From a virus, in IMG/VR virus record IMGVR_UViG_3300010293_000026, positions 1-31,203 of that record: a DNA stretch of 31,203 nt. The stretch is one strand, 5' to 3'. Position numbers and translations under genes: made by a program. Numbering within the stretch: position 1 is the first letter of the stretch; each line of letters begins with the position of its first letter. This document shows, one piece after another, positions 12,978 through 25,497 of the stretch. Below the pieces are notes generated by a model, which saw nothing but the letters and a program-made list of their open reading frames with translations, did not search any database and had not been told where the DNA came from.

Positions 12978-14062
12978 GCAGCTGGGCGGCTATGATTGAG
13001 GCACTTCGGGGGAAGCCTAAGGGTGCTCCGGATCCGTTCGATCGCCAGGCGAATGCGGCGCAAGCGCTTATGGGGTTCAGTGATATTATCCCTGAAGCTG
13101 TGACGCAAACGACAGGCTCGGACCTAGCTGGGATGGCAGCAGGCTTCTTGAGTCCGACGAGCATGCTACGCAAACAGCCGGTCAAGCGCGAGATGATCCG
13201 CAAAGGTGGGGATCCGAATCTTTTGCTCACGCATGGCTCGTCCTTTGACAACTTACTGGAACTGCTGCGCCAGCGGAAGTATTCCTGGAAACCCAGTACG
13301 CCTACGCTTGATGCGCCCTCGATGGCAATTGGTAAAAAGCCTGCGCCTTTTGAAGCTGAGGTTGAGCTTTACATGCAGCCCCAGCGGTTTGACCCGGCGA
13401 CGAACCCCCGTTCGGATTTGTACTCGACAGATATCTACTCCTATCGGAAATCTAGGCAACCGAATCTGTACGCACGTTCAGCACAACTACGTAAAGATCC
13501 CATGTTCACTGAAGGTGAAGCGCCCAGTACTGCGGGGCGTTTACTGGAAGTTGCTGCTGCGCAGAAATTCCCCAGTTACGAGGCGTATGAGAATTCTTGG
13601 CGCGGCGCAAAGCATTTGAAGACGGGGCATGATGTACCGCTTGATTTCCCTGTGGGGCAGTATCGGAGTGCTGAAAACCGCTTCTTGAATTGGTTTGATA
13701 ATCAATCTGGCGTGCCTTTTATGCCAGATAATCCCGATGTGCCAGATATGGCGCGGGAGTATTTGCTGCGCTTCCCGGAAGAAAAGGCGCTATTCCAGCA
13801 AATGCCGCAGGACTATGCGGAGCTGAAATACCACGGCCCGGTTGCCCTTACGCCTGAGAACATTGCTGCAGTGCGCATTCCTAATGCGACAAGAGAAATG
13901 GCTGGCCCTGAGTTTATGCGCGAAATAACTCAGATGCTTAACCGGCAGCAGATTCCAATTATGCGTGGTGTTCTTAATCATCCCGCAGCAACGCAAGAAC
14001 AAATTGCTGAGTATGTAGACCAACTGACTGGTCTGCGTGGACAAAGAAAGTACCCGCGATGA
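12974..14062 (+). CDS. Orphan enzyme-like protein resembling a polyvalent-protein domain
   Basis: This is a 362-residue protein between terminase and portal. I chose the ATG overlapping the terminase stop (ATGA). Residues 83-158 show a distinctive series: LLLTHGSSFDNLLELL, then APSMAIG, then AEVELYMQPQRFDP, then LYSTDIYSYR. A later block reads DYAELKYHGPV...ENIAAVRIP (280-303). This order recalls a domain in large polyvalent proteins of phages and conjugative elements (H-x-L/S...PS-x-A...G-x-v-x-L...D-P...Y-x-x-D-x-Y...E-x-K...P), sometimes suspected to be ADP-ribosyltransferase-like. That link is from memory and unproven. It ends overlapping the portal start. It may be packaged and delivered with the DNA. 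Confidence 0.7.
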   Translation: MSSWAAMIEALRGKPKGAPDPFDRQANAAQALMGFSDIIPEAVTQTTGSDLAGMAAGFLSPTSMLRKQPVKREMIRKGGDPNLLLTHGSSFDNLLELLRQRKYSWKPSTPTLDAPSMAIGKKPAPFEAEVELYMQPQRFDPATNPRSDLYSTDIYSYRKSRQPNLYARSAQLRKDPMFTEGEAPSTAGRLLEVAAAQKFPSYEAYENSWRGAKHLKTGHDVPLDFPVGQYRSAENRFLNWFDNQSGVPFMPDNPDVPDMAREYLLRFPEEKALFQQMPQDYAELKYHGPVALTPENIAAVRIPNATREMAGPEFMREITQMLNRQQIPIMRGVLNHPAATQEQIAEYVDQLTGLRGQRKYPR

Positions 14063-16164
14063 CTATTGCAAGTATCCGCAAAACTAATGAAACTCCTGAA
14101 GCGCAATATAAGCGTTGGCATGAGGAGATTTGCATGTCCGAGAAGTCACTGGATGACTTCTGGGAACGTGGTGAGAAGATTCGCCGCCGGTATATAGACG
14201 ACCGCGGCGCACTGGAGTCTGATACCCGCAAGTTCAACCTGTTCACGACTAACGTGGGCATCCTCCAGTCGGCCCTGTACTCCAAGATCCCCAAGGTCAG
14301 CGTGGAGCGCAAGTTCCAGGACATGAATGACGACGTGGCCCGGGTTGCTGCACACATAATGGAGCGCGCAGTCACGCAAGATCTGGATGTCCCCGACTGC
14401 TACTTCTCCCAGATCATGACGGAGTGCATCGAGGATCGCCTGGTGCCGGGTTTTGGCCAGGCGTGGGTTCGTCTCCAGACAGACACTGAGCAACCTGCGG
14501 ACACCATCGACCCCATTACCGGCGAACCGATCACTCCTCCTCCCCAAGTGGTCAACCAGACAGTCATTCTGGAGCATGTCCACTGGAAAGACTTCCTGTG
14601 GTCTCCGTGCCGCACCTGGGCTGAACGCCGTTGGGTGGGTCGTCGGGTCTACATGGACCGCGATAGTCTTGCCACGCGCTTTGGTGAAGAAGTTGCTGAA
14701 AAGATCCCCTTGGACTATGCGCCTAAGAAGGATGGTGAGGATGACAAGACTGAAGTACTACAGAAAGCTATTGTCTACGAGATCTGGGACAGGCAAACCC
14801 GACGCGTCATCTGGCTTAGTAAGTCCTATCCTGAACTCTTGGACGAGCGAGATGACCCTCTCCAGCTTGAAGACTTCGAGCCGTGCCCGCGGCCACTATT
14901 TGCTCTCACCACGACTAGCTCGTGCATTCCTACCGCCGACTACTACCTGATCCAAGACCAGTACAAGGAGCTGGATCAGGTCAACAACCGCATCAGCTTG
15001 CTGAATGAGGCGCTGAAGGTGGTTGGGGTGTACGATCGGGCGTCTGAGGGCGTCCAGCGCATGCTGTCCGAGACTGTTGAGAATCAGCTGGTGCCTGTGG
15101 ATAACTGGGCAATGTTCGCTGAAAAGGGCGGCATCAAGGGGGCGGTGGACTGGCTGCCTATTGAGCAGGTTGCTGCCGTACTAGAGCGTTTGCGGACCCA
15201 CCGTGATGACATTAAGGGGCAGATTTACGAGCTGACTGGTATCTCCGACATTGTGCGGGGTCAGTCGAAAGCCAGTGAGACGCTGGGCGCTCAGCAGATC
15301 AAGGCCCAATATGCGTCTCTACGCATCCAGCAACTGCAAGATTCAGTTGTCAACTTCGCCTCGGCCCTGTTTCGCATCAAGGCGCAGATTCTCGCCAAAC
15401 ACTTCACTCCTGAGCAACTGCTGAAGGTATCCACAATCGAGTTTACTGTGAATGCCAAGCAGCCTGAGCTGATCGGCCAGGCGCTCCAGCTTATCAAGAA
15501 CGAGCAGCAGTTCATGTGGCGGGTGTCGGTCGATGCCGACTCCATGAAGATGGCGGACTATGCGGCTGAGAAGCAAGAGCGTGCGGAGTTTGTCACTTCG
15601 CTGGCCACCTACCTCCAGTCGGCGGCGACAATGGTTAAAGCCGAACCGGGTGCCACCCCCTTGCTTATCTCCATGATCAAGTATGCCACAGCTGCGCAGA
15701 AGGGGGCTAAAGAGCTTGAGGGTATCCTGGATAATACCCTGGCCGCCTGGCAGCAACAGCAGCAGAATCCGCAGCAGAATCCGCAGCCGGATCCTGAGCA
15801 GCAGGCTTTGCAGCAGAAACAGCAGATGGAGCAACAGAAGCAACAAGCTGATATGGCTATCGCGCAGCAGCGTGCGCAAATGGAAATGGCTGCTAAGCAG
15901 CAAGAATTGAAATTCCAAGAGCAGCAGAATGCGATGGAGATACAGCATCAGCAAGCTATGAATGCTCTGGAAATAGAGATGAAAAAGATGGACATGGCGC
16001 TGCAAGCACAAAAGCAGCAATTGGACATGGTATTCAAGCAGCAGCAACAGCAGCAGGCGGCAGCGGCACAGCCTGCTGAGAAAGAGCCACAAGAAACTGG
16101 ACCGCGCGTAGGTAGTATTAGCCGCGGTACTGATGGAAAAATTGCAGGCTGGTCTGCCGCATGA
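14059..16164 (+). CDS. Portal protein
   Basis: This 701-residue portal of the P22-like type forms the dodecameric ring at the DNA-entry vertex and binds the terminase. Recognisable features are the N-terminal helical region (YKRWHEEI...DDFWERGEKIRRRY), the HWKDFLWSPCRTW segment near 173-186, DQYKELDQVNNRISLLNEALK, and the conserved LTGISDIVRGQSKASETLGAQQIKAQY region is at about 394-420. From about 564 to 670 the protein turns into a Gln-rich coiled coil (runs of QQQQQ, QKQQMEQQ), corresponding to the portal barrel area, ending in a charged tail. The start overlaps the previous stop as ATGA, and the end overlaps the endolysin start as ATGA. Confidence 0.95.
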   Translation: MTIASIRKTNETPEAQYKRWHEEICMSEKSLDDFWERGEKIRRRYIDDRGALESDTRKFNLFTTNVGILQSALYSKIPKVSVERKFQDMNDDVARVAAHIMERAVTQDLDVPDCYFSQIMTECIEDRLVPGFGQAWVRLQTDTEQPADTIDPITGEPITPPPQVVNQTVILEHVHWKDFLWSPCRTWAERRWVGRRVYMDRDSLATRFGEEVAEKIPLDYAPKKDGEDDKTEVLQKAIVYEIWDRQTRRVIWLSKSYPELLDERDDPLQLEDFEPCPRPLFALTTTSSCIPTADYYLIQDQYKELDQVNNRISLLNEALKVVGVYDRASEGVQRMLSETVENQLVPVDNWAMFAEKGGIKGAVDWLPIEQVAAVLERLRTHRDDIKGQIYELTGISDIVRGQSKASETLGAQQIKAQYASLRIQQLQDSVVNFASALFRIKAQILAKHFTPEQLLKVSTIEFTVNAKQPELIGQALQLIKNEQQFMWRVSVDADSMKMADYAAEKQERAEFVTSLATYLQSAATMVKAEPGATPLLISMIKYATAAQKGAKELEGILDNTLAAWQQQQQNPQQNPQPDPEQQALQQKQQMEQQKQQADMAIAQQRAQMEMAAKQQELKFQEQQNAMEIQHQQAMNALEIEMKKMDMALQAQKQQLDMVFKQQQQQQAAAAQPAEKEPQETGPRVGSISRGTDGKIAGWSAA

Positions 16165-16583
16165 ACACCCCGGCCCTGCGCCTCGCCAACTACTGGATGG
16201 ACCGCGCGGTCGCCTACAAGGGCGACATGTCGCCGGAGATTGTCCGGGCGGCGACGCATTTGCTGCGCAAGGTTAACCAACTGATCGCGGTGTCCGGGCT
16301 GGCTCTGGAGCCGCACCCTGTCACCCGCAACCCGATTTCAAGCGGCTGGCGTCCTCCTGCCGTGAATGCCAGGGTGCCCAATGCGGCCCCTCGTAGCAAG
16401 CATATGACGGGCGATGCCGTGGACCTCTATGACCCCGAGGGGGAACTGGATGAATGGTGTATGGAGCATCTAGACGTACTGGCGGAGCTTGGGTTGTGGA
16501 TGGAGCACCCGTCCGCGACGAAGGGCTGGTGCCACTTGCAACAAGTTCCGCCGAGGAGCGGCAGAAGGGTGTTTTGGCCATGA
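16161..16583 (+). CDS. Endolysin, M15-family peptidoglycan peptidase
   Basis: This 140-residue enzyme carries the M15 (VanY/DacY-like) zinc motif SKHMTGDAVD with zinc ligands His81 and Asp88, and a third His125 in GWCHLQ. Upstream, SGWRPPAVNARV (61-72) is the typical substrate-loop region of the M15_3 group. Such enzymes cleave peptide crosslinks in murein and serve as phage endolysins. There is no signal peptide, so release should depend on a holin. It opens a GC-rich lysis cassette placed between portal and head genes and overlaps both neighbours. Confidence 0.93.
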   Translation: MNTPALRLANYWMDRAVAYKGDMSPEIVRAATHLLRKVNQLIAVSGLALEPHPVTRNPISSGWRPPAVNARVPNAAPRSKHMTGDAVDLYDPEGELDEWCMEHLDVLAELGLWMEHPSATKGWCHLQQVPPRSGRRVFWP

Positions 16584-16816
16584 CCCGCCGTCCTAGCTAC
16601 TTCATCCGTCTGTTGGATGCCGTGAGCCAATTGCTCAACGTCGCCCTCTTGAATGGCGACGCCAATGAGTCCATCTCCGGCCGCGCCTTCCGCCAAGGCT
16701 GGCGGTGCACTGAGGCGGTGATCGACACACTGGCTTTTTGGGAGCCGGACCACTGCCGGCGGGCGCACGAGACGGACATCCTGCGGGCGCACCGGCTCGT
16801 GAAGGAGAACACATGA
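16580..16816 (+). CDS. Conserved small phage protein in lysis cassette
   Basis: This 78-residue protein starts in ATGA overlap with the endolysin stop. It reads SQLLNVALLNGDANESISGR, then FRQGW, then DTLAFWEPDHCRRA. I recognise this LLNV-LLNGD-NESISGRA-R-GW pattern from many proteobacterial phages and prophages, where it is uncharacterised and often lies in the lysis region. There is no signal peptide or clear membrane span. Its last codons (LVKENT) carry the AAGGAG ribosome site of the next gene. The function is unknown. Confidence 0.8.
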   Translation: MTRRPSYFIRLLDAVSQLLNVALLNGDANESISGRAFRQGWRCTEAVIDTLAFWEPDHCRRAHETDILRAHRLVKENT

Positions 16817-17049
16817 TGCGCTTGTGGCGGTTGCTGTCGAACGGCGAACACCAGTTCCTATGGCGGGACAAAAACGGCGTTCCTAAGACGCACCACAAGC
16901 GCGATTGCCCGCACTGCCGGGCGCGCGGCTACGAGGTCGGCTGCGCACTGCCATTTCGGCAGCACCGCCTGATTGAAAAAGACACACCCGTCTTTTCCTT
17001 CTGGCGGGTGCGTAATTCGTGGCGAAAACTCGTGAAGGAGAACACATGA
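16813..17049 (+). CDS. Small basic Cys/His protein flanked by duplicated junctions
   Basis: This 78-residue basic protein is linked by ATGA overlap to both sides. It contains HHKRDCPHCRARGYEVGC (about 27-44), which could bind zinc, and FLWRDKNG and FWRVRNSWRK segments. No family is recognised. Strikingly, its last 20 bases and its upstream neighbour's last 20 bases are identical (CTCGTGAAGGAGAACACATG), so both proteins end LVKENT and both next genes get the same ribosome site. This fits insertion of the gene by recombination at a short duplicated junction. Confidence 0.7.
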   Translation: MMRLWRLLSNGEHQFLWRDKNGVPKTHHKRDCPHCRARGYEVGCALPFRQHRLIEKDTPVFSFWRVRNSWRKLVKENT

Positions 17050-17270
17050 ACCTCCGCACAAAACGCTGGCTGCGCGGCCTGATGCGCTCCTGGACAGCGA
17101 ATACCGCCGTGGTCATCGCCGTCCTGGGCTACCTGCAAACGCAGCACCAGTTGATCGACAAGCATCTGGGCGCGGACGCCACCGGCCTGATCCTGATGGT
17201 GATCGGCCTGCTGATGGTGGCGCTGCGGGCCAAGACGACGTCGAGCCTTGAAACGAAGGGGGCGAAGTGA
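17046..17270 (+). CDS. Putative holin-like two-span membrane protein
   Basis: This 74-residue protein has a basic N-terminus (LRTKRWLRGLMRSW), a first hydrophobic segment (about 20-31), a second stronger one (45-62, TGLILMVIGLLMVALRA) and a polar tail ending SLETKGAK. Size, topology and position directly among endolysin and spanin genes fit a small class II-like holin or the DUF7940-type membrane proteins found in proteobacterial phage lysis cassettes. Translation is coupled by ATGA with the gene before and GTGA with the gene after. Confidence 0.65.
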   Translation: MNLRTKRWLRGLMRSWTANTAVVIAVLGYLQTQHQLIDKHLGADATGLILMVIGLLMVALRAKTTSSLETKGAK

Positions 17271-17482
17271 GCACCGATAACAGTATCATTTTGTCTGGTT
17301 TGACTTTCGGCGATGCGTTTACCCACATCAAAGCGGGTAAAAAAGTATGCCGTGCCGGCTGGGATGGGAAAGAGGTGTGGTTGCGGGATACCCCCGCAGA
17401 TGCAACGACGGATAACAGGTTTGTCCCCTGGCGAGCAAGGCAAACTGACATGCTGGCCGAAGATTGGATGGTGGTTGAGTGA
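17267..17482 (+). CDS. Tad2-like (DUF2829) protein, putative anti-Thoeris sponge
   Basis: This 71-residue protein matches the DUF2829 family, now called Thoeris anti-defence 2-like. The N-terminal motif is FGDAFTHIKAGKKVCRAGWDG (14-34 region, typical FGxAlxxlkxGkkVxRxGWnG), and the C-terminal signature is VPWRARQTDMLAEDWMVV (53-70; family form pW-aSQtDmlAeDW). Characterised Tad2 proteins bind and sequester signalling nucleotides such as gcADPR, blocking the Thoeris defence; many family members are untested. This copy is shorter than usual, with a compressed middle. It starts at GTG in overlap with the holin-like gene, and its stop overlaps the spanin start, so it is built into the lysis cassette. 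Confidence 0.88.
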   Translation: MSTDNSIILSGLTFGDAFTHIKAGKKVCRAGWDGKEVWLRDTPADATTDNRFVPWRARQTDMLAEDWMVVE

Positions 17483-17967
17483 TCCACCCCCTCGCTCTCC
17501 GCTTCCTGCCGCACGCCCTGGCCGCGATTGCCGTGGTGGGTGTGGCGTGGTGGGGCTACTCAACCATCTGGGACAGAGGCTATGCGCGCTGCGAAGCTGA
17601 ACACTCCGAAGTCCTCGCTCGAGCGACTGCTCAAGCGCATCAGGACTATCTGGATGCCGTTGCCAGGGGTGACGCGCTCTCAGCGAAGCTGGCCACCGCC
17701 CAAACCGAAAACCGGAGGCTGAAGGATGAACTCTCGTCTGACATTGATCGCCTGCGCGGCTTGTGTCCTGCCGGCCTGCGCATCATCCACGATGCCGCCG
17801 CCGCCGGTCGCAACCTGCCCGACGCCGCCCGCGCATCTCTTGACTCGCCCGCAACCGTTGATGCCCGTGCGATCGCTCACGCTGTCGCCGACAACTACGC
17901 AGCCTGCCGAGGCTACATCGACCAACTCAACGCCCTGATCGACTTCCATGACCATCCGAAAAACTGA
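17479..17967 (+). CDS. Rz-like inner-membrane spanin subunit
   Basis: This 162-residue i-spanin starts at a GTG overlapping the previous stop. It has one N-terminal membrane anchor (about 8-27, LPHALAAIAVVGVAWWGYS), a periplasmic alpha-helical coiled-coil stretch (35-95, AEHSEVLARATAQAH through ENRRLKDEL), and a C-terminal region with two cysteines. It works with the outer-membrane lipoprotein Rz1 to fuse the membranes in the last step of lysis of Gram-negative cells. The Rz1 gene is nested inside in another frame, the classical arrangement, which strongly supports the call. Confidence 0.88.
   Translation: MIHPLALRFLPHALAAIAVVGVAWWGYSTIWDRGYARCEAEHSEVLARATAQAHQDYLDAVARGDALSAKLATAQTENRRLKDELSSDIDRLRGLCPAGLRIIHDAAAAGRNLPDAARASLDSPATVDARAIAHAVADNYAACRGYIDQLNALIDFHDHPKN
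17726..17938 (+). CDS. Rz1-like outer-membrane spanin lipoprotein, nested in Rz
   Basis: This 70-residue frame lies entirely within the Rz gene, one base out of frame. It begins with a lipoprotein signal (MNSRLTLIACAACVLPACAS) with lipobox L-P-A-C18, followed by a short Pro-rich mature part (PPPPVATCPTPPAHLLTRPQP). GGAG and AAGG precede its ATG. Small Pro-rich lipoproteins nested in Rz are the hallmark of o-spanins. It ends 29 bases before the Rz stop. Confidence 0.85.
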   Translation: MNSRLTLIACAACVLPACASSTMPPPPVATCPTPPAHLLTRPQPLMPVRSLTLSPTTTQPAEATSTNSTP

Positions 17968-20506: not shown

Positions 20507-21487
20507 ATGGCATTCCCCTCGTCCATTAGCGACATCATCGCTACGACCATCCAAAATCGTTCCGGCGTCATTGCCGACAACGTGACCAAGAACAACGCCC
20601 TTCTGGCCTACCTGCAGAAGCAGGGCAACATCAAGAAGTTCAGTGGCGGCAACACCATCCTGCAGGAACTGTCGTTTGCTGAGAATGGCAATGCCAGCTG
20701 GTATTCGGGCTATGACCTGCTGCCGGTTACTGCGCAAGATGTGATCGGCGCGGCTGAATACCAAATCAAACAGTGCGCGGTGCCTGTTGTGGTTTCTGGC
20801 CTGGAGCAGCTGCAAAATGCTGGTAAAGAGCAAATCATCGACCTGTTGGAATCTCGTATTGCTGTTGCTGAGGCCACGATGTCTAACATGATCGCCGCCG
20901 GTATCTATGCTGACGGTACTGGTTTTGCCGGCAAAGAAATCACCGGCCTGAATGCTCAAGTTGCGGTCACCCCGACCAACATTGTTGGCGGTATCGATCG
21001 CAATGCTGCCATTGGTGCTTTCTGGAAGAACAAGTCAGTCGATGCTTCGACGTACCTCGGTGCCGCAACTTCTGCCAACAACATCCAGCAAGTGTTCAAC
21101 TACATGTGGGCGCAACTGGTGCGTGGCCAAGACCGTCCCAAGCTGGTGGTTGTTGACAACGACTACTGGGGCAAATACGTCGCCTCGCTGCAAGCCAACC
21201 AGCGTTTCTCTTCTTCGGCGCAAGCTGACCTGGGCTTCGTGTCGCTGAAGTACATGGACGCTGACATTGTGCTGGACGGCGGCGTTGGCGGCTTCATGGG
21301 CGCGAGCAAGGCGTACTTCCTCAACCCGAAGTATCTCCATTACCGCCCGCACGCCCAACGGAATATGGTGCCCCTGTCCCCCGGCAAACGCTACAGCGTG
21401 AACCAGGATGCCGAGGTGCAAATCCTGGCCTGGGCCGGCAACCTCACCGCCTCCAACCTCTCGCTGCAAGGCGTTGTCGTCGAGTAA
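20507..21487 (+). CDS. Major capsid protein
   Basis: This 326-residue coat protein has AGGAG upstream of its ATG. The N-terminal region NNALLAYLQKQGNIKKFSGGNTILQEL (29-55) and the following SGYDLLPVTAQDVIGAAEYQIKQ, GKEQIIDLLESRIAVAEATMSN and YADGTG segments form the pattern of a widespread podovirus coat family (HK97-type fold expected). It lies after the scaffold and before a probable decoration gene. Codon use shifts to C-ending codons compared with both flanks, as expected of a very highly expressed gene. A 127-base leader precedes it, and a hairpin follows it. Confidence 0.93.
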   Translation: MAFPSSISDIIATTIQNRSGVIADNVTKNNALLAYLQKQGNIKKFSGGNTILQELSFAENGNASWYSGYDLLPVTAQDVIGAAEYQIKQCAVPVVVSGLEQLQNAGKEQIIDLLESRIAVAEATMSNMIAAGIYADGTGFAGKEITGLNAQVAVTPTNIVGGIDRNAAIGAFWKNKSVDASTYLGAATSANNIQQVFNYMWAQLVRGQDRPKLVVVDNDYWGKYVASLQANQRFSSSAQADLGFVSLKYMDADIVLDGGVGGFMGASKAYFLNPKYLHYRPHAQRNMVPLSPGKRYSVNQDAEVQILAWAGNLTASNLSLQGVVVE

Positions 21488-22755: not shown

Positions 22756-23466
22756 ATGCAACTGACTGCCCTGCAAATTATCCAACAAGCAGCACTTGAA
22801 TTAGGCCTAAATAAACCTAACGAAGTCGCGGCGTCGCTGGAGAATACAGGCCAGCAGATGCTTGCATTGCTCAATGCCGCGGGTGCAGACCTTATGTTTA
22901 TGCATCCGTGGCAAGAGATTACAGCTATCCACGTATTTCAGACGAATGCCGCACAAGCTGCCTACGCGTTCCCGTCTGACATGAACTATATTGTGGATGG
23001 CACTTTCTGGAACCGCACGAATGATGAGCCATTGATAGGCCCAGTTACTTCCCAAGAATGGGCTGCATTGACATCAGGTGCTGATTCCCTGACGCCGCAT
23101 GAAGTATTCCGGTTTCTAGGCGGTAGTGTCCTAATTTTCCCCACTCCAACTGCAGTTTTAGACATAGCATTTGAGTATGTCAGTGCTAACTGGGTGGAGA
23201 GTGGTCTGAATATTGGTACCTACAAATCTACTATTACAGCTGACACAGACATCCCGCGGCTTAATTCCAACCTTCTCATTAAAGCCCTGAAGGTCAAAAT
23301 GTGGAATGCTAAGGGCCTGGATACTACTGCTTTGTTGGCTGAATTTAACCTGGTATTCGAAAGTCTTCTCGGCAAGAATAAGGGGGCGCGCGTGCTCTCC
23401 CTTGCTGCGAGAGCGAGTTCTGGCTATCTAAGCATGCGCAATGTCCAGAATGGCAGCTGGAATTAA
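22756..23466 (+). CDS. Head-tail connector / tail tubular protein A-like adaptor
   Basis: This 236-residue protein starts three bases after the previous stop, with AAGGAG inside the end of that gene. The N-terminus (MQLTALQIIQQAALELGLNKP...GQQMLALLNAAGADLM...HPWQEI) and the beta part (YAFPSDMNYIVDGTFWNR, FLGGSVLIFPTP) form the pattern of the P22 gp4 / T7 gp11-type adaptor that extends the portal ring. The adjoining large tail gene supports this role. Confidence 0.85.
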   Translation: MQLTALQIIQQAALELGLNKPNEVAASLENTGQQMLALLNAAGADLMFMHPWQEITAIHVFQTNAAQAAYAFPSDMNYIVDGTFWNRTNDEPLIGPVTSQEWAALTSGADSLTPHEVFRFLGGSVLIFPTPTAVLDIAFEYVSANWVESGLNIGTYKSTITADTDIPRLNSNLLIKALKVKMWNAKGLDTTALLAEFNLVFESLLGKNKGARVLSLAARASSGYLSMRNVQNGSWN

Positions 23467-23467
23467 T

Positions 23468-25069
23468 ATGCAGCGCACAGCCAAAATCCGCACTTTTCCT
23501 GCGCCCATCGGCGGGCTAAATATCGTCGATAATTTGGTGTCGATGCCCGCGACAGATGCGACTGTCTTGCGGAATTTTTTTAGCCAGCCTTACGGACTAG
23601 AAGTTCGCAAAGGCAATGTGCGCCACGCAACTGGGCTCGGCGCGCAAGTGCAAACAATTATCGAGCATATCACAGCCCAACAGAGCGGTCTAACAAAGCT
23701 ATTTGCTTTTGCTGGCAGTGGCATGTATGATGTAACTACGCCGGGTGATCAGACACGCACGCCTGTCCTAACTGGTCTTTCCAATGCTAAATGGGACGGC
23801 CCAGCAATTAGTAACGCATCGGGTTATAACCGTATCCTGTTCAATGGCGTAAATGACGGAATCTGGATTAAAGACAATTTTACTATTGGCCGCATTACGT
23901 CAGCAGTTGATCAAAATAATCCCACGGCAGGCGAACTCGCCGGTGTTAACCCCAAAACTCTCGTAAGCGGGACAGTCCACCAAAAACGCATTTGGCTAGT
24001 CCAAGGTAATAGTACGCGCGCATGGTACCTGGCACCTGAAGCAATCAGCGGCCAAGCTACTATGTTTGACTTCGGCGCTATCTTCCAACGTGGTGGCTAC
24101 CTTGCAGCCATTGCCACTTGGACAATTGATTCCGGTACTGGTATTGATGATCTGCTTGTTGCAGTATCGTCTAGAGGCGAAATTGCTATTTACGCAGGTA
24201 CCGATCCGGCAGGTATTGATACTTGGTATCTAAAGGGCGTATTCCAATCGGGTACCCCCCTTAGCGTTCGCGCAATTACTAAAATTAAAGGTGATCTGGT
24301 TATCGCAACGCAGTTTGGCCTGCTTTCTATGTCTGAAGCATTAAAGCTGGGTACTACTGGCGAAGGCGGTAAAAGTGGCGCGTACTTGTCGCGAAAAATC
24401 CAGTATTTAGTGGCCCAATTAGCCCATGACCTGTCGACCGAATTTGGTTGGCAGATATGCTATTGGCCTGATAACAACATGCTTTTAGTCAATGCGCCTA
24501 AGCTCGACAGTTCAGGGCAGCTTGTTATGTCCACCATCACAGGTGGCTGGTCACAGTTTGATAATTGGGATGCACTCTGCTTTACGATCTTTCAAGGACA
24601 GCCTGTTTATGGCGATCGTAATGGTAATATATGGCGCGCTTGGGAAGGCTATACTGATGGCGCAATCCAATCTGACGCAATTACTATTACATCTGGCACA
24701 GCAGTTTATGCCGAGGTTCAAGCAGCATTCAATTTCTTTGATTCTGCCGCAGTTGTAAAGCATGCCAAAATGGCGCGCCCAACATTTATTGGCGGGCAGT
24801 CAATTGCCTATAACATTATGGTAAACTCTGATTATAACTATGATGTTGTGAGCGTGCCGGGAATAGCTGGTAGCGCTCCGGCCGCTCTCTGGAACGCAGG
24901 TATTTGGGGGGCAGACAAATGGTCTGCTTCGCCGAAATCTACGCAGCACATTTGGACAAGCGTTACTGGATTAGGTTCTGCTTTTGCAATGCGCTTAGCA
25001 TTTCAAGTCGCGCAGCCGGTGCTCTGGGCTTCATATGATATAATGTATGAAGAAGGCATAGGTATATGA
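23468..25069 (+). CDS. Tail tube/stopper-type structural protein
   Basis: This 533-residue protein follows the adaptor gene directly. I chose the ATG right after the adaptor stop; a few extra codons upstream would overlap. The N-terminal KIRTFPAPIGGLNIVDNLVSMPATDATVLRNFFSQPYGLEVRKG is at about 5-47 and is typical of the P22 gp10 / T7 gp12-like nozzle proteins of short tails. The rest is repeated beta-propeller-like segments (LFAFAGSGMYDVT, RILFNGVNDGIWIKD, LLVAVSSRGEIAIYAG). It should form the short tail tube that extends from the connector. It uses A/T-rich codons, unlike the coat gene. Confidence 0.85.
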   Translation: MQRTAKIRTFPAPIGGLNIVDNLVSMPATDATVLRNFFSQPYGLEVRKGNVRHATGLGAQVQTIIEHITAQQSGLTKLFAFAGSGMYDVTTPGDQTRTPVLTGLSNAKWDGPAISNASGYNRILFNGVNDGIWIKDNFTIGRITSAVDQNNPTAGELAGVNPKTLVSGTVHQKRIWLVQGNSTRAWYLAPEAISGQATMFDFGAIFQRGGYLAAIATWTIDSGTGIDDLLVAVSSRGEIAIYAGTDPAGIDTWYLKGVFQSGTPLSVRAITKIKGDLVIATQFGLLSMSEALKLGTTGEGGKSGAYLSRKIQYLVAQLAHDLSTEFGWQICYWPDNNMLLVNAPKLDSSGQLVMSTITGGWSQFDNWDALCFTIFQGQPVYGDRNGNIWRAWEGYTDGAIQSDAITITSGTAVYAEVQAAFNFFDSAAVVKHAKMARPTFIGGQSIAYNIMVNSDYNYDVVSVPGIAGSAPAALWNAGIWGADKWSASPKSTQHIWTSVTGLGSAFAMRLAFQVAQPVLWASYDIMYEEGIGI

Positions 25070-25497
25070 TTGTGCATGGTCGCGAAATTGCCGATTGGAT
25101 TGATCAGCAAGCTGGGACTGCTTTCGGCTTGACTGTGCAAGCTATTGGAGAGCTACGTGATGGTAAGTTGATTGCAGGTATTGGCTATGGTGGCTATTCG
25201 GGGCCTAACATCTATGTAAATTTGGCCATCACGGTGCCCCCCTCAAAAGAATTTTGGTACGCTGCTGCAAGTTATCCATTTAATGACTTAGGCGTGAATC
25301 GTATTACTGCGCTAGTCAAGCAAAGCAATGAGCGTTCAATCCGTATTTTGCAGCATTTGCAGTTTGAGTGCGAGTGCTGGTTGGAAGGTGCTTCTGAAGG
25401 CGACGATGGCGAGGTAGAGGATACTCTTGTCTATCGCTTGTGGAAGAAGGATTGCAAGTTATTGACGTGGAGTAAAGATCATGGGCAGCAAGCCTAA
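25066..25497 (+). CDS. GNAT-like acetyltransferase of the tail region
   Basis: This 143-residue protein starts in ATGA overlap with the tail gene. It reads like phage-encoded GNAT acetyltransferases: beta strands (LIAGIGYGGYSGPNIYVNLAI), then FWYAAASYPFNDLGVNRITALVKQSNERSIRILQHLQFECE (region 63-105), where the VNRITALV and SNERSIRILQHLQF parts correspond to the family's acetyl-CoA-binding fold and B motif. Homologous genes occur beside tail genes in many podoviruses. The substrate is unknown; it may modify virion or host proteins. Confidence 0.8.
   Translation: MIVHGREIADWIDQQAGTAFGLTVQAIGELRDGKLIAGIGYGGYSGPNIYVNLAITVPPSKEFWYAAASYPFNDLGVNRITALVKQSNERSIRILQHLQFECECWLEGASEGDDGEVEDTLVYRLWKKDCKLLTWSKDHGQQA

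Follow-up and report, generated by a model that had tools for sequence, protein, structure and literature searches.

SPO1 Tad2 (gp34.65; PDB 8SME/8SMF/8SMG) is an anti-Thoeris sponge for gcADPR, Myroides ModTad2 (8V3E, 9EIB) binds His-ADPR, and HgmTad2/AcrIIA7 and SptTad2 (8KBI-8KBM, 8WJD), which belong to the same family, also bind cyclic dinucleotides, for which a long insert between β2 and β5 is used (PMC12043709). The gcADPR pocket is composed of the loops β1-β2, β3-β4 and β4-α3 together with β4 and α3 from two protomers, and the dimer interface is formed by α2 and β2 (PMC12043709). Tad2-like genes were also found between lysis genes. In Sinorhizobium phage AP-20-A the order is holin p014, Tad2 p015 and autolysin p016 (adjacency taken from gene numbers; PMC13299392), and in Ruminococcus phage phiRg507T2_3 a Tad2-like protein (gp19; our locus L178, 2255-2764) is encoded between holin (gp18) and endolysin (gp20). 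The domains of both are full-length, the AP-20-A protein having 97 aa and gp19, with two PF11195 stretches, 169 aa.

In the window, i.e., the whole 31,203-nt stretch of viral DNA that was analysed (IMG/VR record IMGVR_UViG_3300010293_000026), a Tad2-like gene is likewise placed among lysis genes, yet between holin and Rz and with a shortened core (Table 1). The original prediction had assigned its product to DUF2829/Tad2 on the motifs FGDAF...GKKVCRAGW and PW-ARQTDMLAEDW. Both are present in the ORF, and the assignment was confirmed by a match to PF11195 (Tad2-like, formerly DUF2829; E 2.5e-16, 60.4 bits vs a curated cut-off of 25) that covers profile positions 2-73 of 73. A phmmer search of PDB returned Tad2/AcrIIA7 chains as the sole significant relatives (E 4e-10 to 7e-9; next best no lower than 0.29), ModTad2 being the best match (E 4e-10). 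The N-terminal FG.A helix, the R.GW strand/turn and the C-terminal QTDMLAEDW helix-strand are all present, and residues F14, A17, R29, G31, W32, G34, W55 and Q59-D66 are invariant across all 49 aligned PF11195 members. Since codon usage in the tad2 frame resembles that of the neighbouring genes (z 3.4 over shuffles), the gene is not a chance ORF. Judged by sequence, membership in the Tad2 family is secure, whereas membership in the functional class of anti-Thoeris sponges is not. PADLOC gave no match, and no DNA-level relatives of the 14-19.4 kb region were found among phages.

Table 1. Coordinates of the tad2-like gene, its neighbours and the associated signals in the window.
Feature	Position	Strand	Details
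Portal protein gene	14059..16164	+	upstream of tad2; PHROG 12082 E 1.5e-162
Endolysin-like M15 peptidase	16161..16583	+	Pfam PF08291 E 7e-5; PHROG endolysin E 3e-4
Small ORF X1	16580..16816	+	78 aa; PHROG 3342
Perfect 21-nt direct repeat, left copy	16796..16816	+	CTCGTGAAGGAGAACACATGA; SD and ATGA
Small ORF X2	16813..17049	+	78 aa; directly upstream of holin; no family; second apparent cargo gene
Perfect 21-nt direct repeat, right copy	17029..17049	+	CTCGTGAAGGAGAACACATGA; X2/holin junction
Holin-like gene	17046..17270	+	74 aa; by position, hydropathy and relatives L162/L265/L267/L269
tad2 Shine-Dalgarno (SD)	17256..17263	+	within holin gene 3′ end (GAAGGGGGC)
tad2-like gene	17267..17482	+	71 aa; GTG start; PF11195 domain residues 13-70; core shortened between W32 and W55
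Rz inner-membrane spanin	17479..17967	+	162 aa; GTG start; PHROG Rz-like spanin E 1.1e-11
Rz1-like lipoprotein ORF	17726..17938	+	out of frame inside Rz; signal peptide with LPACAS lipobox
Major head protein gene	20507..21487	+	downstream of tad2; PHROG 9953 E 2.4e-104

The 71-aa product shares with SPO1 Tad2 the Pfam family, the FG.A, R.GW and QTD.LAEDW motifs and, in its model, the fold. However, SPO1 Tad2 has the β2-β4 core, N in GWNGK and S in PSQTD, while the window protein reads GWDGKEV and WRARQTD and its core is about 20 residues shorter; the same core and residue differences separate it from ModTad2. The region of the HgmTad2/AcrIIA7-type β2-β5 insert is deleted, so that this insert is missing as well. 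The core span, measured between the W of GW(N/D)GK and the W preceding QTD (W32-W55), amounts to 23 residues. It is 35-62 residues in the 99 relatives of viral and phage origin and at least 35 in those from bacterial loci, so that the window protein lies 12 residues below any closer relative measured. The shortest other core, of 31 residues, belongs to a divergent 72-aa PF11195 paralogue in L065, and the claim that the window core is shorter than that of every member was softened for this reason. In L065 two PF11195 genes overlap in tandem (384-602 and 595-858), the first encoding this 72-aa protein, which lacks GWNGK, and the second a full domain. Core spans of 30-31 scored for L194 and L205 turned out to be text-pattern artefacts, as both sequences have full cores. 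The original prediction had called the protein a minimal version at 71 residues; the length holds, but 'minimal' does not, since intact members of 71-74 aa exist (L052, 71 aa; Curiosium gp4, 72 aa; XC38), and the unusual part is the shortened core.

The AlphaFold2 model of the window protein, built with 49 sequences (pLDDT 81, pTM 0.68), contains helix α1, strand β1, helix α3, strand β5 and an N-terminal strand, with β2-β4 missing; a control, L010, modelled with the same sequences (pLDDT 90, pTM 0.77), shows the full order α1-β1-β2-β3-β4-α3-β5. Element names were assigned here after the published Tad2 order, and both models are of monomers, that of the window protein being of moderate confidence. 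In a fold search its only confident matches were Tad2/AcrIIA7 (best E 6e-4, TMq 0.69), the matches of the intact control being stronger (best E 2e-8, TMq 0.84). The complete β1-β4/α3 core of the pocket-forming Tad2 proteins is thus absent from the model, in line with a core of 23 vs 35 or more residues.

Two conserved segments, GWNGKGM and W(L/V)(A/P)SQTD, are altered in the window protein (N33→D, G36→E, M37→V, L56→R and S58→R). The position of N33 is occupied by N in 99/99 viral and phage and 65/65 bacterial-locus relatives, and that of S58 by S in 99/99 and 69/70, respectively. When the pocket is mapped onto the sequence by structural element, following the description in PMC12043709 and not by ligand contacts, N33→D, G36→E and S58→R fall in the segments equivalent to the loops β1-β2 and β4-α3, and β3-β4 is missing. 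By this mapping, not all pocket residues are lost. The idea that the window protein is alone in deviating at these N and S positions was discarded, since changes in the same segments occur in the remote family members L184, L279 and L281, and for the same reason the N33 and S58 changes bear on the pocket and not on family membership. Among viral contigs the pattern GWDGK..WL was found at 11 loci, one of which is a Tad2 (L184) with an intact core and the S, so that no closer shortened relative was recovered.

Could the short core still form a tetramer with gcADPR or His-ADPR pockets and block Thoeris, as an ordinary Tad2 sponge does? PF11195 membership and the Tad2-like model speak for it, but of the elements that build the pocket (PMC12043709) β3-β4 is missing and the N33 and S58 changes lie in the other two segments, which makes this explanation improbable. 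As the core is 12 residues shorter, β2-β4 are absent and N33 and S58 are replaced by D and R, canonical signal binding, viewed from sequence and model, is doubtful. The expectation that the protein sequesters Thoeris signals as an anti-defence protein hence keeps its family part, and its sponge part is weakened. Family membership alone does not amount to anti-Thoeris activity, and much of the pocket-building part is gone from this member. Should it bind something, its Tad2 core would be the smallest among those compared here.

The locus was also compared with five IMG/VR contigs that carry the same holin and Rz. In L162 and L265 holin is joined directly to Rz via the same GTGA, so that the slot is empty; the near-identical pair L267 and L268 carries there a 120-aa ORF (PHROG 13573) with 4-nt overlaps, and L269 has three ORFs, which measure 81, 67 and 84 aa. 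In the window, tad2 constitutes 212 extra bases exactly between two overlaps. The Rz of L162 is 74-75% identical to that of the window, and a nested Rz1-like ORF is found also in L162, L265, L267 and L268. The holin-like ORF gave no family match in Pfam or PHROG, its name being derived from where it lies and from its one or two hydrophobic segments, and tblastn searches of phages with the holin and with the Rz family (L267) returned no matches. PF11195 is absent from all five other slot-sharing records and from 50 related records (portal relatives and L162; many are fragments), and tad2 is therefore most simply a gain in the window lineage, with loss elsewhere also possible given the few relatives. 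Its G+C content, 52.8% vs 63.6% and 64.0% in the flanking genes, is consistent with a later arrival, though this is weak evidence when taken alone, because the whole phage averages 54.6%.

The gene was predicted to be translationally locked between its neighbours, and this was found at both ends: the stop TGA of the holin-like ORF lies within the GTGA at 17267-17270 that starts tad2, and the stop TGA of tad2 within the GTGA at 17479-17482 that starts Rz. The SD duplex of tad2 (-10.8 kcal/mol) is the strongest among ten starts tested. In L162, where the slot is empty, the equivalent site serves Rz (-10.5 kcal/mol), while the Rz of the window has a weaker SD (-6.8); tad2 has thus taken over the SD that serves Rz in that relative.

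This arrangement bears on two further explanations. The first is a lysis function, in which the small soluble protein regulates holin or spanin, or the frame merely sets the Rz:holin ratio. It would suit a gene wedged between holin and Rz whose start, like that of Rz, is coupled to the preceding frame, and whose insertion swaps the strong SD of Rz for a weaker one; however, relatives that share this holin and Rz lack tad2, the slot is elsewhere taken by unrelated ORFs, and the product has no transmembrane segment, so that a role in lysis is the least probable of the explanations considered. The second is that an ordinary Tad2 entered the slot, suffered an in-frame deletion of its core and now, as a decaying remnant, binds no ligand, its frame being kept by coupling to Rz, which an early stop codon in tad2 would break, as initiation of Rz would now rely on ribosomes that terminate at the end of tad2. 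The shortened core, the missing β2-β4 and the N33/S58 changes all fit decay, and with the SD of Rz itself weaker (-6.8 vs -10.5 in L162) coupling would keep the frame open without any protein function, which is why an intact frame was rejected as a proof of function. Yet QTDMLAEDW, FG.A, R.GW and FVPW are perfectly kept, codon usage is normal, and remote intact-looking members (L281, L279) likewise vary at N and S.

The holin/Rz slot being empty or differently filled in relatives, tad2 is read here, tentatively, as accessory cargo of the Tad2 family which, if functional, would act late, as a nucleotide-signal sponge whose pocket is altered. The decaying remnant is a serious possibility ranked close behind, the ordinary sponge and the lysis role being less likely. 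Against the altered-pocket cargo stand the short core, the model lacking β2-β4 with its weaker fold matches, the N33 and S58 changes and the absence of a close homologue through which purifying selection could show. Under this cargo reading the PF11195 gene, placed in a variable slot of the late operon, would be co-transcribed with the portal and major capsid genes and be translated by re-initiation at GTGA, and its product would accumulate as capsid protein accumulates. Its putative function would be to capture a nucleotide alarm signal, as a sponge or decoy produced late; with the pocket remodelled, gcADPR, His-ADPR and cyclic dinucleotides would presumably not be bound in the canonical manner.

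The original prediction regarded late timing as odd for an anti-defence protein, which was not borne out. Placement was surveyed in 30 annotated phage regions with a Tad2-like match, some of which are not independent (Huey/IME10, PWKp9B/NNA-G4 and the three Rz-convergent cases each represent one type). In five of the 30 the Tad2-like gene has a same-strand lysis gene no more than three genes away (Huey, IME10, Pm86, phiRg507T2_3 and Vibrio 24E35.2), and in three it converges on Rz (VLCpiS13c, AB4P2 and Tbat1_6). Another five lie within head, tail or packaging operons (phiAH14a, PWKp9B, NNA-G4, IME346 and vir215), and in IME346 the gene overlaps each of its neighbours, terminase and a portal-like gene, by 4 nt. 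Members of the Tad2 family thus commonly occupy late positions, and the AP-20-A order p014-p015-p016 (PMC13299392) also counters the objection, as does the activation of Thoeris by the late major capsid protein (PMC12578639), owing to which a sponge made alongside capsid would be in time. Since the portal, endolysin, holin, tad2, Rz and major head genes share one strand from 14.1 to 21.5 kb, tad2 is probably expressed together with the capsid genes. Promoter- and terminator-like sites in 10.9-21.6 kb showed no excess over shuffles, and the operon is accordingly inferred from the layout. A member of a signal-sponge family carried as swappable, translationally coupled cargo of a lysis operon would offer late delivery of counter-defence, which is a testable idea.

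A second apparent insertion lies upstream of holin, where ORF X2 is flanked on both sides by a perfect 21-nt repeat; by our own estimate the chance of such a repeat in 1.5 kb is of the order of 1e-7. X2 looks like a second cargo insertion through linker duplication. The first ORF inserted in L269 ends in a perfect 22-nt repeat of the SD-bearing holin 3′ end, and shorter variants of this linker close the second and third ORFs. Because repeats bound both the L269 cargo and X2, and a 21-nt repeat is not expected by chance, entry of cargo by linker duplication or by recombination at the linker is suggested. No SD/start linker repeat was found around tad2 itself, so that this route is not indicated for tad2. 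The linkers resemble the Start-Associated Sequences of Cluster K mycobacteriophages, short SD-bearing repeats at gene starts (PMC3203893), but differ in having two exact copies per genome, a length of 21-22 nt that includes the 4-nt overlap, and a position that bounds single inserted genes in a lysis operon. On sequence grounds the holin/Rz junction is a variable, partly linker-bounded slot, known from six contigs so far, and such a slot in a lysis operon is the finding of wider interest. The holin/Rz gap is also a place to seek counter-defence genes. A bolder and rather unlikely extension would make the lysis operon a cargo bay, in which 4-nt overlaps and partly duplicated 21-22-nt SD/start linkers let cargo be placed between holin and Rz and before holin and be translated in series, the core-deleted Tad2 being one such cargo with a ligand unlike those known.

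Several further observations were made. All three serial ORFs of L269 (3202-3921) close with a version of the C-terminal holin sequence, ESKG(A/S)K, and this version carries the SD of the next gene. Coliphage N4 gp49 (L173, 2261-2743; PF11195 E 8e-24), for which no function is annotated in that record, adjoins the virion RNA polymerase gene and is oriented towards it. An N-acyltransferase-like gene of the window (25066-25497; PHROG 4470 E 4e-19) sits between that of an amidase-annotated protein (23441-25069) and a virion structural gene. Among the viral-contig relatives of Tad2, several (of L003, L017, L020, L048, L062 and L080) appear to adjoin portal-, terminase- or scaffold-like genes, and many have an N-terminal extension with a GY.SWSPK..F...Y motif.
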